From assembly GCA_021831035.1 (NCBI GenBank), contig JAKBNL010000003.1:96165-160164 (forward strand): DNA of 64,000 nucleotides, read 5' to 3'. The stretch is from Actinomycetes bacterium (GTDB taxonomy: Bacteria > Actinomycetota > Acidimicrobiia > Acidimicrobiales > RAAP-2). The notes below the pieces were generated by a model, which was given only the letters and a program-made list of their open reading frames with translations, was not told where the DNA came from and did not search any database. Of this stretch, positions 54,831 to 62,910 are shown in pieces (positions within the stretch are counted from its first letter, which is position 1; every line of letters begins with the position of its first letter). Both the position numbers and the translations under genes were made by a program.

Positions 54831-54850
54831 CCAACAAGGCTATCGACCGC

Positions 54851-54887
54851 CCCCCTTCGGCAAACTGTGTGGGTGAAGGCGTAAGGC
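54851..54887 (+). repeat. Left terminal inverted repeat
   Basis: CCCCCTTCGGCAAACTGTGTGGGTGAAGGCGTAAGGC. Confidence 0.92.
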
Positions 54888-54930
54888 AAATGACCGCCCG
54901 TCACCACCGAGTTCTATGCCGAAGTTTCTC

Positions 54931-56262
54931 CTAGGCACCGACCGGGGTCGGTGCTTCGGTTGACGCTTCTGCGGGGTGTGCCGGCTCGTCGGTGTTCTGA
55001 CGACTCGGTCTGACCTCCCCTCCACGTCCAGCCACGGAGCGTGTCCCCGCGGGGGTGGGCTTGCTGGGCCACCCGGCCAGGTTGGTCGCGGCGTTGAGGT
55101 CGCGGTCCATCACGAGGCCGCAGGCCTCGCAGTGATACTCCCGCTCGTTAAGGCCCAGCTTGGCTTTCACCGCGCCACAACGAGAACAGGTCTTGGAAGA
55201 GGGGTAGAACCGGTCGGCCTTCACGAGGGCCGATCCGTACCACTTGGTCTTGTAGTCGAGCTGGCGCACGAACTCACCCCAGGCGGCGTCGCCGATGTGC
55301 CTAGCCAGTGCGTGGTTCTTCAGCATGCCCGTCACGTTCAGGTCCTCGACGACGATGAGGTCGTAGTTCTTCGCGAGCATGGTCGTCGTCTCGTGGATCA
55401 GGTTCCTCCGCTGGTCGGCGACGTGGGCGTGGATCCGCTGGACCCGGGTGTTGGCCCGCCGCCACCGCTTCGATGGGGCGACGCCCCTGCGTGGTCCCTG
55501 GCGTCGTGACGCCACGCGCTGGGCTCGGGCCAGTCGGTCCTCGGTGACGACGAGATGATGAGGGTTGGCGACCGCGAGCACCTGTTCTCCCGAGGGGCTC
55601 GCCCCGGTGTAGAGGGCGGTGATCCCGACGTCGACCCCGATGACCCGCTCGGGCGGTCTCGTCGGTGGCAGCGGGCGCTCGACCTCGACGGTGAGTGAGA
55701 CCCACCACCGACCGCCCCGCCCGGAGAGCGTGGCCGAGAGGATCCGTCCGGTGCCGCGATCGAGGTGGCGGTAGAGCTTGCGCGTCGACTCGTAGGTCTT
55801 CACCTCACCCACGCGGCTGATCCGCACGTGGTGGGAATCAACAAGACGCACGGCCGACCCGGCGAGGGTGCACGAGTGGTGCGTGCGCCGAGACCGCGGG
55901 GTCGGGAACCGCGCGGTGCCCTTCTTCCAGTTGGCGAAGGCCCTCGCCAGGTGGACGTGGGCGTAGTTGTAGGCGGACGAGGCGTTGGCGCCCCACCACG
56001 GGGCCAGTTCGTCGCGCTTCTCGTACCAGAGCTTCTGGAGGTCGAGCTGGGCGGTGCCGAGGTAGTTCTCCTTTCGGACCTCCTCGCCGACCTCCTTGCG
56101 GGCGCGGTTCTCGTCCCAGTTCTCCTTCACCAGTGACAACAGGGCGTTGTAGGCGAAGCGCGCGCCCCCGACGTGACTGCGCAGTTGCGCGACCTGCTCG
56201 GGGGTGGGGTCGATCGCGTAGCGGTAGGCCTGGTGGATCGTCGGCGAGGGGCCCCCGGACAC
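54931..56262 (-). CDS. tnpB: TnpB/OrfB RuvC-like RNA-guided nuclease (IS605/IS1341 type)
   Basis: RuvC motifs GVDVGITAL (D), VVEDLNVTGM (E), DRDLNAATNLA (D); zinc finger CSRCGAVKAKL...YHCEACG; N-terminal HTH-like YRYAIDPTPEQVAQL. Confidence 0.95.
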   Translation of the reverse strand: MSGGPSPTIHQAYRYAIDPTPEQVAQLRSHVGGARFAYNALLSLVKENWDENRARKEVGEEVRKENYLGTAQLDLQKLWYEKRDELAPWWGANASSAYNYAHVHLARAFANWKKGTARFPTPRSRRTHHSCTLAGSAVRLVDSHHVRISRVGEVKTYESTRKLYRHLDRGTGRILSATLSGRGGRWWVSLTVEVERPLPPTRPPERVIGVDVGITALYTGASPSGEQVLAVANPHHLVVTEDRLARAQRVASRRQGPRRGVAPSKRWRRANTRVQRIHAHVADQRRNLIHETTTMLAKNYDLIVVEDLNVTGMLKNHALARHIGDAAWGEFVRQLDYKTKWYGSALVKADRFYPSSKTCSRCGAVKAKLGLNEREYHCEACGLVMDRDLNAATNLAGWPSKPTPAGTRSVAGRGGEVRPSRQNTDEPAHPAEASTEAPTPVGA

Positions 56263-56293
56263 ACCATCAGTGTCGGCTCACCGTGTGACAGCG

Positions 56294-56330
56294 GCCTTAC
56301 GCCTTCGCCCACACAGTTTGCCGAAGGGGG
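56294..56330 (-). repeat. Right terminal inverted repeat
   Basis: Reverse complement CCCCCTTCGGCAAACTGTGTGGGCGAAGGCGTAAGGC. Confidence 0.92.
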
Positions 56331-56340
56331 ACCGCCCTAC

Positions 56341-57307: not shown

Positions 57308-58003
57308 TCAGAACAGGGTCGTCGACTCGGGTTCGATGAGCCCGGGCCCGTCGTTGCGCACCGAGCCCACGGCCTTGGGGACGGCGTGGTGGGTGAGCGT
57401 GCCCGTCGGCGCCGGGCGTAAGAGACTCTGTCGCTCGCCGGCCTCGTGACCCGCGACGTCGAGCCAGGCCTCGAGGTCGTCGGGATCGAGCACGACGGGC
57501 ATCCGGTCGTGGATCTGCTCGAGGTCGGCGCTCGGCTCGGTCGTGATCACGGTGCAGGTCCGGAGCGTCTGGTCGGTCGCGGGGTCGCGCCAGTGCTCGT
57601 AGAGCCCGGCGAGCACCAGCGGCTCACCGTCGACGCGAGTGAAGTAGTGCGGCTGGCGGTTCGCGCCCGGGCGGTGGTCCCACTCGTAGAAGCCGTCGAC
57701 GGGGATCGCGCAGGTCCGCGATTTGAAGGCCGCGCGGAAGGAGGGCTTCTCGGCGACGGTCTCGGCGCGGGCGTTGAAGAGGCGGTTGCCGATCTCGGGG
57801 CTCTTCGCCCAGGCGGGGACGAGGCCCCAGCGGTAGCGGTCGAGGACCCGGCCGTCGGGGCCCTCGGCGACGGCAAAGAGGGGGCGCTGGGGGCCGACGT
57901 TCCAGCTCGGGGTGCCCTGCGGGTCGAGCCCGGCCGCGAGGGCGGCCGAGAGGAACCGGGCCAGGTGGGCCGGCGGGGTGAAGAGGGCGACGCGGCCGCA
58001 CAT
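57308..58003 (-). CDS. SRAP (HMCES/YedK-like) abasic-site-crosslinking protein
   Basis: MCGRVALFT (catalytic Cys2); WGLVPAWAKSPEIGNRLFNARAETVAEKPSFRAAFKSRTCAIPVDGFYEWDHR. Confidence 0.94.
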   Translation of the reverse strand: MCGRVALFTPPAHLARFLSAALAAGLDPQGTPSWNVGPQRPLFAVAEGPDGRVLDRYRWGLVPAWAKSPEIGNRLFNARAETVAEKPSFRAAFKSRTCAIPVDGFYEWDHRPGANRQPHYFTRVDGEPLVLAGLYEHWRDPATDQTLRTCTVITTEPSADLEQIHDRMPVVLDPDDLEAWLDVAGHEAGERQSLLRPAPTGTLTHHAVPKAVGSVRNDGPGLIEPESTTLF

Positions 58004-58062
58004 GGCCCCAGTCTGCCCGTCGGGGCCCGGGCTGGCGGCCGTGACGCGGCCTCGCTACTGTG

Positions 58063-58078
58063 GCGAACATATGTTCGC
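58063..58078. promoter_or_regulatory. LexA/SOS box
   Basis: Perfect 16-bp palindrome GCGAACATATGTTCGC matching the actinobacterial CGAAC-N4-GTTCG consensus. Confidence 0.92.
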
Positions 58079-58730
58079 TTCCGACCTCTCCCGACCCCCG
58101 ATCCCCACGGAGCTGCGCGCGACGCTGCGCCCGGTCGCCCTGGCCTCGACCCGTCTCCTGCCGCTCGGCGAGCCGTGGCGCGGCTGGGTCCCGGGCGGGG
58201 GGCTGCGACGCGGCTCGAGCGTCGTCGTCGAGGCCCCGGCCGGCCGGGGCGGGCTGAGCCTGGCCCTCGCCCTCGTCGCTGAGTCGAGCGCGCAGGGTCA
58301 CTGGGCGGGGGTCGTCGGGGTCGACGACCCGGGGGTCGTCGCGATGCTCGAGCTCGGCCTCGACCTGCGCCGCGTGCTCTTCGTGCCCCGCCCGCGCGGG
58401 GCGTGGGCCGAGTCGACGGCCGACCTGCTCGACGGGGTCGACCTCGTCGTGGTGCGCCCGCCGGGCCGGGCGGCCCACGGGGCGGCCCGGCGTCTCGTCG
58501 ACCGCGTGCGCGAGAGCGGCGCGGTCCTGCTCGCCCTCAGCGAGCCGCGCACCCCGTGGCCGCTGCCGGCCGACCTGCTCTTCAGCGTGGTCGACGCGCA
58601 GTGGGTCACGACGAGCCGCCTCGACGCGCGTCGCCTGAGCGTGCGGGTCGGTGGGCGCGGGGCCGCCGGGCCCGTGCGCGAGCACGTCGTCGTCCTGCCC
58701 AACCGCGACGGGCGGGCCGAGGCGTCCTAG
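58071..58730 (+). CDS. imuA': ImuA'-like RecA-fold mutasome protein
   Basis: LLPLGEPWRGWVPGGGLRRGSSVVVEAPAGRGGLSLALALVAE; followed by imuB-dnaE2; SOS box at start. Confidence 0.88.
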   Translation: MFASDLSRPPIPTELRATLRPVALASTRLLPLGEPWRGWVPGGGLRRGSSVVVEAPAGRGGLSLALALVAESSAQGHWAGVVGVDDPGVVAMLELGLDLRRVLFVPRPRGAWAESTADLLDGVDLVVVRPPGRAAHGAARRLVDRVRESGAVLLALSEPRTPWPLPADLLFSVVDAQWVTTSRLDARRLSVRVGGRGAAGPVREHVVVLPNRDGRAEAS

Positions 58731-59809
58731 TGGAGCGCCTCCTCGCCGTCTGGGTCGAGTCGCTCAGCGACGAGGCGCCCGACGGGTCGACGCTGCGCGC
58801 GACCCTCGAGCTGCTCGACGCCCTTGACGCCCTCTGTCCCTTCACCGAGGCGGTGCGCCCGGGATTGTTCGCGCTGCCGCTGCGCGGGCCGAGTCGCTTC
58901 TTCGGTGGGGACGACGTGGTGCTCGGCCTCGTGCGCCGGTGCGTGCTCGAGGTCGTCGGCGTCGAGCCCGACCTCGGCGTGGCCGAGGGCCTCTTCAGCG
59001 CCGAGCTCGCGGCGCGCCAGCGCGTGGTCGTGCCGGTCGGTCGCGGCGACGCCTTCCGGCGGGCCCAGCCCCTCACCGCGCTCGGCCGGCGCGACCTCGC
59101 CACGACGGGCGAGCGGCTGGGGCTGCGCACGGTGGGCGCCTTTGCCGACCTCGACCCGGCGCGTGTCGCCGAACGCTTCGACCGCCGGGTCCTCGTCGCG
59201 CACCGCGTGGCCCGCGGGGAGCTCGCCGAGCTCGAGGGCCAGCGCGACCCCCGCCTCGAGGCACGCCTCGCGGCGCTGCGCGGTGTCGTCGCGGCGCCGG
59301 GGGAGCAGCGGGGCTTCTTCGGCCAGCGCAGCGCCGGCGACGACCGGGCCGAGGTCGCGGCCCACCGCGTGCGCCGCCGACTCGGGGCTGAGGCGGTGTG
59401 CGTGGCGCGCCTGCGCGGCGGGCGGGGGCCCGAGGACCGGGCGACCCTCGTGCCCTGGGGGGCGCCCGAGGCCGACGGTGTCGACGGCGCCCCCTGGCCG
59501 GGCCGGCTCGTGGCCCCCTCACCGGCGACGACGCTGGCCCGCCCGGTGCCCCTGCAGGTGCGCGACGAGGGGGACCGGCCGGTCGTGCTCGGCGCGCGCG
59601 GGACGCTCAGCGCCCCGCCGGCCTCGGTCGTCTTCGCCACGCCGCTGCGCCGTGCGGTCGTCTGGCACGCCGGGCCGTGGCCGCTGGTGGAGCGGTGGTG
59701 GTCGCGCCGGCGCCGCCGCGCGCACCTCCAGGTCGTGCTGGCCGGCGGCGAGGCGCTGCTCGTCGCGACCGAGGCCGGCCGGTGGTGGCTGGTGGGGATC
59801 TACGACTGA
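58730..59809 (+). CDS. imuB: ImuB, Y-family polymerase-like mutasome protein (N-terminally short)
   Basis: EAVRPGLFALPLRGPSRFFGGDDVVLGLV...DLGVAEGLFSAELAARQ; position between imuA' and dnaE2. Confidence 0.88.
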   Translation: MERLLAVWVESLSDEAPDGSTLRATLELLDALDALCPFTEAVRPGLFALPLRGPSRFFGGDDVVLGLVRRCVLEVVGVEPDLGVAEGLFSAELAARQRVVVPVGRGDAFRRAQPLTALGRRDLATTGERLGLRTVGAFADLDPARVAERFDRRVLVAHRVARGELAELEGQRDPRLEARLAALRGVVAAPGEQRGFFGQRSAGDDRAEVAAHRVRRRLGAEAVCVARLRGGRGPEDRATLVPWGAPEADGVDGAPWPGRLVAPSPATTLARPVPLQVRDEGDRPVVLGARGTLSAPPASVVFATPLRRAVVWHAGPWPLVERWWSRRRRRAHLQVVLAGGEALLVATEAGRWWLVGIYD

Positions 59810-62800
59810 TGGCGGTCTACGGTGAGCTCCACGCCCACTCGGGTTTCAGCTTCCTCGACGGCGCGAGCGACCCCGAGGAGCTCGTCGTCGAGGCGGTGCG
59901 CCTCGGTCTCTCGGGTCTCGCCCTCACCGACCACCACGGCCTCTACGGCGTGGTGCGCTTCGCCGAGGCGGCCCGGGCCCTCGGCCTCGCCACCGTCTTC
60001 GGTGCCGAACTGACCCTGGACGGCGCCGACGACCGCACGGGGATCCCCGACCCCTCGGGCGAGCACGTGGTGGTGCTCGCGCGCACGCCCGAGGGCTACG
60101 CGCGCCTCTCGCGCACGCTCGGCCTGGCCCACCTCGCACGGGGCGAGAAGGGGGCGCCGCGCCTCTCCCTCGACGACGTCGCGGCGGCCGCGCGCGACTG
60201 GCTCGTCCTCACCGGGTGCCGCAAGGGGCCGCTCGCCCGGGCGCTCGAGGCGCAGGGGCCGCGCGCGGCGGCCCGCGCCCTCGAGCGCCTCGTCGAGCGC
60301 TTCGGGCGCGACCACGTGGCCGTCGAGCTCTGGGACCACGGCGAGCCCCTCGACGTGGCGCGCAACGACGCGCTCGCCGAGATCGCGGTGCGCGCGGGCG
60401 TCGACCTCGTCGCGACGAACAACGTGCACTACGCCACGCCCCGCGACCTGCCCCGGGCCCACGTGCTCTCGGCCATTCGCGCGCGGCGCAGCCTGGAGGA
60501 GATGGAGGGGTGGCTGAGCGCCTCGCCGCTCGCGCACCTGCGCAGCGACGCCGAGCAGCGACGGCGCTTCGCGCGCTGGCCCGGCGTCGTCGACCGGGCC
60601 GGCGCGCTCACGGCCGACCTCGCCTTCGACCTGCGCCTGGTGGCGCCGCGCCTGCCGACCTTCGTCACGCCGCCGGGCCTCGACGAGCAGGCCTACCTCG
60701 AGCGTCTCGTCGCCGAGGGGGCGACGAGACGCTACGGGACCCGCGACGCCGAGCGGGTGCCCGGGGCGTGGCGCCAGATCGACCACGAGCTGGCCGTGAT
60801 CGCCCAGCTGGGCTTCGCCGGCTACTTCCTCACGGTCTGGGACATCACCGAGTTCTGCCGGGCGCGCGACATCTACTGCCAGGGTCGGGGCTCGGCCGCG
60901 AACTCGGCCGTCTGCTACGCGCTGGGGATCACCAACGCCGACGCGGTCGCCCTCAACCTCTTCTTCGAGCGGTTCCTCTCGCCGGCGCGCGACGGTCCCC
61001 CCGACATCGACGTGGACATCGAGTCGGGCCGGCGCGAGGAGGTCATCCAGTACGTCTACGAGCGCTACGGCCGGCACAACGCGGCCCAGGTCGCCGCCGT
61101 CATCACCTACCGCTCGCGCTCGGCGCTGCGCGACGTGGCGCGCGCCTTCGGCGCGAGCGAGGAGGAGGCCAACCACGTGCGCGACCACGTGGACCGCGAG
61201 ACGATGACGCCCCTCGACGACTCGGTGAGCGAGCTGGTGACGGCGCTGGCGAGGGAGCTGCGCGACCGGCCCCGCCACCTCGGACTCCACTCGGCCGGCA
61301 TGGTCATCTGCGACCGGCCGGTCCTCGACGTCTGCCCGGTCGAGTGGGCGCGTACCGAGGGGCGCAGCGTGCTGCAGTGGGACAAGGACGACTGCGCGGC
61401 GATCGGCCTGGTGAAGTTCGACCTGCTGGGGCTCGGCATGCTCGAGGCGCTGCACCGCTGCGTCGACCTGGTGGCGGGGTTCCACGGCGTCGCGCTCGAC
61501 CTCGGGGCGCTCCCCCAGGAGCCGGCCGTCTACGACCTGCTCGGCGAGGCCGACACCGTCGGGGTCTTCCAGGTCGAGTCGCGCGCCCAGATGGCGACCC
61601 TGCCGCGGGTGCGGCCCCGGTGCTTCTACGACCTGGTGATCGAGGTCGCCCTCATCCGGCCCGGTCCGATCCAGGGGCGGGCCGTCAACCCCTACCTGCG
61701 CCGACGCCGCGGCGAGGAGCCGGTCACCTATCTTCACCCACGCCTCGAGCCGATCCTCGGGCGCACCCTCGGCGTGCCCCTCTTCCAAGAGCAGCTGATG
61801 GAGATGGCCGTCGCCGTCGCCGGCTTCTCGCCGGCCGAGGCCGACGAACTGCGCCAGGCCATGGCCGCCAAGCGCTCGGAGCTGCGCATGATGCGCCTGA
61901 AGGGCCGCTTCTACGCCGGCATGGCCGCCAACGGCATCACCGGCGCGCCGGCCGACCAGCTCTTCGACGCGCTGGCGGCCTTCGCCAACTTCGGCTTCCC
62001 CGAGTCCCACGCCGTCTCCTTCGCCCACCTCGTCTACTGCTCGGCCTGGCTGAAGCTCCACTACCCGGCGGCCTTCCTCGCCTCGCTCTTGAACGCCCAG
62101 CCGATGGGCTTCTGGTCGCCCCAGAGCCTCGTGGCCGACGCCCGCCGCCACGGGGTCACGGTCGCCCGACCCCACGTGGACCGCTCGGGCGCGCTCGCCA
62201 CCGTGGAGGGCGACCGGGCCGCGCCGGTCGTGCGCCTGGGGCTCGCGAGCGTGCGCGCCCTCGGGACCGAGGCGGCCGAGCGGATCGCCCGCGGCGCGCC
62301 GTACCGGGACGTCGCCGACCTCGCCCGGCGCGCCGGGCTCTCGGCGGCCGCGCTCGAGGCGCTGGCCGCGGCGGGGGCGCTCGACGGGATGGGCGAGGAC
62401 CGGCGCGCCCTCACCTGGTCGGCCGGCGCGGCCAGCCAGGCTCGTCCCGACCGGCTCGAGGGGGTCGTCACGGGGCTCGTCGCGCCGTCCCTCGCGCCGG
62501 CGAGCGACCTGGAGCGGGTGGCCGACGACCTGTGGGCGATGGGGCTGACGACCGAGGCGACCGCGCTCGAGCTCGTGCGACCGGCCCTGGACGCGCGCGG
62601 GGTGGCCCGCGCGGCGACCCTCGCCGCGGTCGAGGGCGCCCGGGTGAGCGTGGCGGGGGTGGTGACGCACCGCCAGCGACCCGAGACCGCGAACGGCGCG
62701 GTCTTCGTCAACCTCGAGGACGAGACCGGCCACGTGAACGTGATCTTCTCGCGCGGGGCCTGGGTGCGCTGGCGGGCGGTCGCCGACCGCGCCCCGGCCC

Positions 62801-62910
62801 TGCTCGTGCGCGGGACCCTCGAGCGCGGCCAGGGGACGCTCGCCCTAGCGGCCGAGCACGTCGAGGCGCTCGCGCTGGGCGCGACGTCCCCCTCGCGGGA
62901 CTGGCACTAG
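59809..62910 (+). CDS. dnaE2: Error-prone DNA polymerase III alpha subunit
   Basis: PHP domain YGELHAHSGFSFLDGAS; GSAANSAVCYALGIT; PPDIDVDIESGRREEVIQYVYERYG. Confidence 0.96.
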   Translation: MAVYGELHAHSGFSFLDGASDPEELVVEAVRLGLSGLALTDHHGLYGVVRFAEAARALGLATVFGAELTLDGADDRTGIPDPSGEHVVVLARTPEGYARLSRTLGLAHLARGEKGAPRLSLDDVAAAARDWLVLTGCRKGPLARALEAQGPRAAARALERLVERFGRDHVAVELWDHGEPLDVARNDALAEIAVRAGVDLVATNNVHYATPRDLPRAHVLSAIRARRSLEEMEGWLSASPLAHLRSDAEQRRRFARWPGVVDRAGALTADLAFDLRLVAPRLPTFVTPPGLDEQAYLERLVAEGATRRYGTRDAERVPGAWRQIDHELAVIAQLGFAGYFLTVWDITEFCRARDIYCQGRGSAANSAVCYALGITNADAVALNLFFERFLSPARDGPPDIDVDIESGRREEVIQYVYERYGRHNAAQVAAVITYRSRSALRDVARAFGASEEEANHVRDHVDRETMTPLDDSVSELVTALARELRDRPRHLGLHSAGMVICDRPVLDVCPVEWARTEGRSVLQWDKDDCAAIGLVKFDLLGLGMLEALHRCVDLVAGFHGVALDLGALPQEPAVYDLLGEADTVGVFQVESRAQMATLPRVRPRCFYDLVIEVALIRPGPIQGRAVNPYLRRRRGEEPVTYLHPRLEPILGRTLGVPLFQEQLMEMAVAVAGFSPAEADELRQAMAAKRSELRMMRLKGRFYAGMAANGITGAPADQLFDALAAFANFGFPESHAVSFAHLVYCSAWLKLHYPAAFLASLLNAQPMGFWSPQSLVADARRHGVTVARPHVDRSGALATVEGDRAAPVVRLGLASVRALGTEAAERIARGAPYRDVADLARRAGLSAAALEALAAAGALDGMGEDRRALTWSAGAASQARPDRLEGVVTGLVAPSLAPASDLERVADDLWAMGLTTEATALELVRPALDARGVARAATLAAVEGARVSVAGVVTHRQRPETANGAVFVNLEDETGHVNVIFSRGAWVRWRAVADRAPALLVRGTLERGQGTLALAAEHVEALALGATSPSRDWH

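Follow-up and report, generated by a model that had tools for sequence, protein, structure and literature searches.

A 64,000-nt stretch of the genome of an Actinomycetes bacterium of the order Acidimicrobiales (GenBank assembly GCA_021831035.1, contig JAKBNL010000003.1, forward-strand positions 96,165 to 160,164; hereafter the window) contains a unit of about 1,478 bp at positions 54852-56329, with inverted repeats at both ends and an intact IS607-type tnpB gene between them (Table 1). TnpB is an RNA-guided DNA cutter and the ancestor of Cas12. As a preliminary description made from the sequence alone had reported, the segments 54851-54887 and 56294-56330 are complementary at 36 of 37 positions, and ACCGC directly flanks both repeat ends. 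This pentamer is part of an 8-bp direct repeat, GACCGCCC. Because a run of C blurs the left edge by 1-2 nt, the length of the unit is either 1,477 or 1,478 bp. Its open reading frames (ORFs) bear out the earlier statement that TnpB is the only transposase-type gene in the unit, as they include no serine recombinase tnpA, no Y1 tnpA, and no transposase of the Mutator-like p-MULT type; Rfam has no match inside the element.

The insertion site is found empty in the sister genome G117 of the same genus, where both flanks, 95-96% identical to those of the window, meet with no element between them and the duplicated bases occur once. G001, G046, and G122 likewise lack the element, and the two flanking genes are adjacent there. 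The unit is a mobile element, and its insertion in the window is recent. No further copy of the terminal repeat is present within the window (0 expected from shuffles) or, allowing up to 3 mismatches, in the 1.90 Mb host assembly, where the two tnpB boundaries are its sole sites, and the dispersed REP-like (repetitive extragenic palindromic) ends that the preliminary description had offered as an alternative find no support.

Relatives of the unit are common in the genus. A BLAST search against 100 related genomes returns elements at 68-89% identity that, in many genomes, begin and end at the repeats, and from the fetched loci we collected 42 distinct units with tnpB between a repeat pair, the edges coinciding with the repeats throughout. 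Across these units, the direct repeat is longest, at 8 bp, once both edges are shifted one base inward of the 37-bp repeat described earlier. A clear duplication is seen in 35 of the 42 units and measures exactly 8 bp in 31, 7 bp in two, and 6 bp in two, so that the 5-bp length first proposed is the one error of the preliminary description. A Tn3 origin, suggested by the 5-bp duplication together with repeats of ~38 bp, was set aside in view of the 8-bp value. In an exact-pattern scan of the end across 85,488 species, matches lie in this Acidimicrobiaceae group and the rest (Gammaproteobacteria and others) score as chance, while a search of plasmids for the same ends gave nothing convincing.

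The repeats of the family are ~36 bp long and mostly begin with C. Both repeats and duplications lie within the ranges of p-MULT elements (IS256, ISH6, ISLre2, ISKra4, ISAzba1, and ISMich2), which have 18-39 bp repeats with a conserved terminal C, 8-9 bp duplications, and an RNase H-fold DDE transposase, some with passenger genes (PMC3942029). Unlike these, the window unit carries tnpB and no transposase. It resembles miniature inverted-repeat transposable elements (MITEs) in being non-autonomous, in its terminal repeats and, presumably, in being moved in trans, but it is 1.48 kb long with an intact coding gene under purifying selection rather than a short non-coding unit without a functional gene. 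The exact empty site, the edges of the 42 relatives, and the 8-bp duplication support the earlier proposal of a non-autonomous inverted-repeat element that carries an RNA-guided nuclease.

Since its TnpB exceeds the cut-off of the IS607 model (376 vs 350 bits), the unit could instead be viewed as a decayed IS607 or IS605 element that has lost tnpA and whose ends are inverted by chance. However, prokaryotic TnpB-only, IS607, and IS605 elements have neither terminal inverted repeats nor target duplications (PMC3627910). The window unit, which shares with TnpB-only (IS1341-type) elements a tnpB without tnpA, has both, as opposed to IS607 elements, in which a serine recombinase acts at matching dinucleotides, and to IS200/IS605 elements with their Y1 tnpA. 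Repeats and duplications recur in dozens of copies, and the ends are common to loci encoding DDE transposases. The duplications and the empty site already refute such decay, and we assign it practically no weight.

A candidate for the mobilizing enzyme lies at repeats without a nearby tnpB. Following these leads to locus L137, on the same contig as L219 in an Acidimicrobiaceae metagenome-assembled genome, where the repeat lies ~32 nt before the gene for a 567-aa protein, which is followed by a DEDDh exonuclease gene. Locus L255 encodes a homologue at 73% identity with the repeat at near-equal spacing, and the similarity between L137 and L255 begins at the repeat edge. The gene pair recurs in other families, in homologues whose ends have a TTCGGCA core: L275 is a 4,176-bp element whose ends match at 19 of 20 positions and lie between the copies of an exact 8-bp duplication; L277, whose ends agree over 20 bp without a mismatch, and L276 have both ends and an inexact duplication; and L279 and L280 have a TTCGGCA-core repeat at the 5' end. 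The heptamer is found upstream, in the inward direction, in 7 of 14 loci (0.32 on average in shuffles), although paired ends are the stronger evidence because the reverse heptamer also occurs (in five loci), partly in internal hairpins.

The 567-aa protein has no curated Pfam or NCBIfam match, a PDB sequence search with it returns no match, and its single-sequence structure prediction is poor (predicted local distance difference test score, 39). Its profile matches three Mutator-like transposases (E 9.6e-39), one of which passes the Pfam Transposase_mut cut-off, and the invariant D274/D275, D346, and E469 are likely its catalytic residues. As such, comparison of the loci strongly supports the assignment of the ends to a p-MULT transposase of divergent sequence, whose gene accompanies that of a DEDDh exonuclease in the autonomous relatives. 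Sharing these ends, the tnpB units have the appearance of p-MULT derivatives that are not autonomous and move in trans; the window unit is termed a derivative, not an autonomous member, because it encodes tnpB only. An autonomous transposase with the same ends, for which the preliminary description had suggested a search, is thus found in related genomes and not in the host assembly. It differs from described p-MULT transposases in lacking a curated family match and in its pairing with the exonuclease, a word that does not appear in PMC3942029.

The duplication length also fits movement by an ISL3 transposase, as ISL3 elements of the genus make 8-bp duplications, some of their ends (such as GGGTCTTCCGGCATGAATGTGGGT) are loosely similar, and the host has one ISL3 copy. 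ISL3 repeats, in contrast, are ~24 bp long, mostly begin with GG, and lack the TTCGGCAAAC core common to several p-MULT loci, and no ISL3 locus scored with the repeat model. Alike in duplication and different in ends, ISL3 was rejected as the mobilizer, and we regard its involvement as highly improbable.

Transposons with a divergent Mutator-like transposase and a DEDDh exonuclease lie at L137:1097-4332, L255:2324-5577, and L275:4670-8845, and the two genes are adjacent in all homologous loci compared; the pair possibly represents an undescribed transposon family. Within genome G250, the upstream ends of L279 and L280 have outer 8-bp segments that are reverse complements (CCCTCGGC and GCCGAGGG), as though L279 and L280 were the two termini of a single insertion that carries a transposase at both. 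In genome G045, different element ends (L136:1370-1377 and L137:4400-4407) have the same outer 8 bp, GATCTGTT, with differing flanks beyond, which could be the trace of an intramolecular replicative event. At L255:1433-2323, an element end breaks into a gene whose product contains an archaeo-eukaryotic primase domain of the TOTE type (AEP-TOTE, E 9e-77).

TnpB itself is intact. The product matches OrfB_IS605, Cas12f1-like_TNB, and HTH_OrfB_IS605, and its scores place it with the IS607-type model NF038280 (376 bits, cut-off 350) rather than with IS200_TnpB (248 bits vs 425). An open frame of at least 400 codons is retained in 32 of the 42 copies, and D216, E311, D393 (numbered along the open frame used in the alignment) and four cysteines are conserved in 31-32 of these 32. 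The ratio of nonsynonymous to synonymous substitution rates (dN/dS) is 0.21-0.36 in 9 of 10 pairs and, for the closest pair, 0.50, which indicates purifying selection on tnpB, in agreement with the earlier remark that intact RuvC D/E/D residues and an intact zinc finger suggest selection on TnpB. We infer that the protein is an active nuclease.

The 3' region of tnpB probably encodes the omegaRNA (obligate mobile element-guided activity RNA) of this nuclease. The region shows covarying helices in which 93% of cells are paired, with a covariation score of 0.469 against 0.200 in shuffled alignments. In the last stem, the terminal repeat itself is the partner of a segment located past the stop codon; this stem and its inner extension have 33 cells changed on both sides, compared with 8.1 in shuffles and 2-9 when the pairing is slid. 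Because the last covarying stem uses the repeat, the repeat is probably transposon end and omegaRNA scaffold at once. IS607 elements of the same TnpB subtype (e.g., ISXfa1) similarly have a right-end RNA (reRNA) that extends past the element edge, and its boundary adapts to the transposase (PMC10711439).

The DNA beside the insertions suggests that TnpB recognizes the site that the element entered. On the side of the tnpB 5' end, and on that side alone, the duplication is followed by a conserved [A/T]A[T/C/A] motif, with 3.9 bits vs 0.97 on the other side, and none of 20,000 side swaps is as one-sided. Position 1 is A or T in all 35 units, and position 2 is A in 30 and T in five. The first base of the motif tracks the TnpB tree, with 3 changes vs 8.8 in shuffles (0 of 500 as low), a comparison in which related rows, and likewise repeat lineages, do not count as independent. 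The empty site presents the motif, the duplication, and the opposite flank as one unbroken stretch, which is the arrangement of a target-adjacent motif (TAM) and guide target expected if TnpB recognizes the unoccupied site. In the occupied copy, the repeat end takes the position of the TAM.

Table 1. Features of the tnpB unit and its insertion site in the window.
Feature	Position	Strand	Basis or remark
Predicted guide, from duplication start into left flank	54833..54852	-	Element edge; in the G117 empty site it follows the TAM without a gap
Left copy of 8-bp target-site duplication, GACCGCCC	54845..54852	.	Last base ambiguous (C run); single copy in G117 empty site
Left terminal inverted repeat (right end, RE, of tnpB), CCCCTTCGGCAAACTGTGTGGGTGAAGGCGTAAGGC	54852..54887	+	Repeat comparison
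Probable omegaRNA scaffold region, 5' limit provisional	54853..55061	-	Alignment A2 and covariation
3' arm of last predicted omegaRNA stem, within terminal repeat; pairs with 54918-54924	54855..54861	-	Covariation, 37 elements
5' arm of last predicted omegaRNA stem	54918..54924	-	Covariation
tnpB, predicted IS607-type RNA-guided nuclease, 443 aa; RuvC D/E/D and C4 zinc finger intact	54931..56262	-	Profile matches, alignment
Covarying hairpin at tnpB coding 3' end, just before stop codon (54948-54953 with 54936-54941)	54936..54953	-	Covariation
Right terminal inverted repeat (left end, LE, of tnpB)	56294..56329	-	Repeat comparison
Right copy of 8-bp target-site duplication, GACCGCCC	56330..56337	.	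Family-wide duplication analysis
Putative TAM, TAC on + and 5'-GTA-3' on the tnpB strand, directly 5' of duplication	56338..56340	-	Family motif

Taken with the ends, this layout makes it quite probable that the unit is a non-autonomous Mutator-like (p-MULT) transposon with tnpB as its only gene and that TnpB cuts the empty site. A p-MULT transposase of autonomous relatives would excise and insert the unit in trans, and the tnpB mRNA would yield an omegaRNA with the terminal repeat in its last stem and the duplication and adjacent flank as guide. The empty site (TAM, duplication, and flank) could then be cut by TnpB in a sister chromosome, in further copies of the genome, or once the element has excised, and repair from the occupied copy would restore or spread the element. 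The occupied copy itself would escape cutting, as its guide match is preceded by the repeat end and not by a TAM. We thus infer movement in trans and retention or drive by TnpB.

Several observations weigh against this model. The host assembly (~94% complete) has no relative of the transposase despite the recent insertion. The right ends of the L137 and L255 elements were not found on their broken contigs, and complete autonomous elements are consequently observed only in other families, whose ends have a shorter core in common with the unit. The motif has a weak mirror on the opposite side, with A at position 2 in 19 of 35 units, and its one-sidedness could in principle stem from asymmetric targeting by the transposase.

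The same p-MULT element might instead carry TnpB as passive cargo that contributes nothing to retention or spread, the flanking [A/T]A[T/C/A] being a target preference of the transposase. The mirror fits such a preference. So do loci in which the same ends hold unrelated genes, which suggests that the transposase moves whatever lies between them. At L178 the enclosed gene is ornithine-cyclodeaminase-like and the duplication measures 8 bp; at L158, in another family, the gene is polyketide-cyclase-like; and at L116 it is weakly GNAT-like, with no matching duplication. The ends thus serve as a general vehicle, with tnpB as the usual passenger. Yet the repeats are near-symmetric while the motif is strongly one-sided relative to tnpB, even in elements whose repeats are identical at 33-35 of 36 positions, and the motif follows the TnpB tree. 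Selection on tnpB and the covarying omegaRNA fold also argue against a passive role, which we consider unlikely, if less so than an ISL3 or IS607/IS605 origin.

At L173:1949-2066 lies a true MITE-like derivative, 118 bp long, which has these same ends and is flanked by an exact 8-bp duplication.

TnpB function has so far been tied to Y1 and serine-recombinase elements. For the unit described here, we lean toward the view that a bacterial DDE (Mutator-like) lineage adopted TnpB as a working retention or drive module, in which the element end forms the last stem of the omegaRNA, the duplication begins the guide, and the TAM lies beyond the duplication, such that only the unoccupied site would be cut. 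The closest parallel is the fungal Fanzor1 of the MuDR-superfamily elements ROr-4, PBl-3, and MCi-4, which combine a TnpB homologue with inverted repeats and a 9-bp duplication and have no MuDR transposase of their own (Bao and Jurka 2013, PMC3627910). Those elements carry a eukaryotic Fanzor1, whereas the window unit carries a bacterial IS607-type TnpB and makes an 8-bp duplication, and its family adds sequence evidence for an omegaRNA and a TAM as well as a candidate transposase partner linked by shared ends. We found no report of a prokaryotic TnpB in a Mutator-type element in the open literature searched, subscription papers lying outside that search.

If this view is correct, the unit would parallel, in a prokaryote, the Fanzor-bearing cut-and-paste transposons of eukaryotes; its mobilizer would be a new family that combines a p-MULT transposase with a DEDDh exonuclease, and TnpB recognition of the entered site would give such an element a way to spread and persist. 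This suggests that RNA-guided nucleases may serve a duplication-making DDE transposon in bacteria, as for Fanzor in eukaryotes. The purpose of TnpB is directly testable here, as the empty site, TAM, and guide are all readable from the sequence and close relatives with the same ends and other cargo provide natural controls. The preliminary description had proposed searches for an empty site and for other copies; the former is present in G117, and the latter are the 42 units of the genus, with none elsewhere in the host assembly.

Farther along the window, at 57912-62910, three consecutive + strand ORFs resemble, by eye, an imuA-imuB-dnaE2 mutagenesis cassette.
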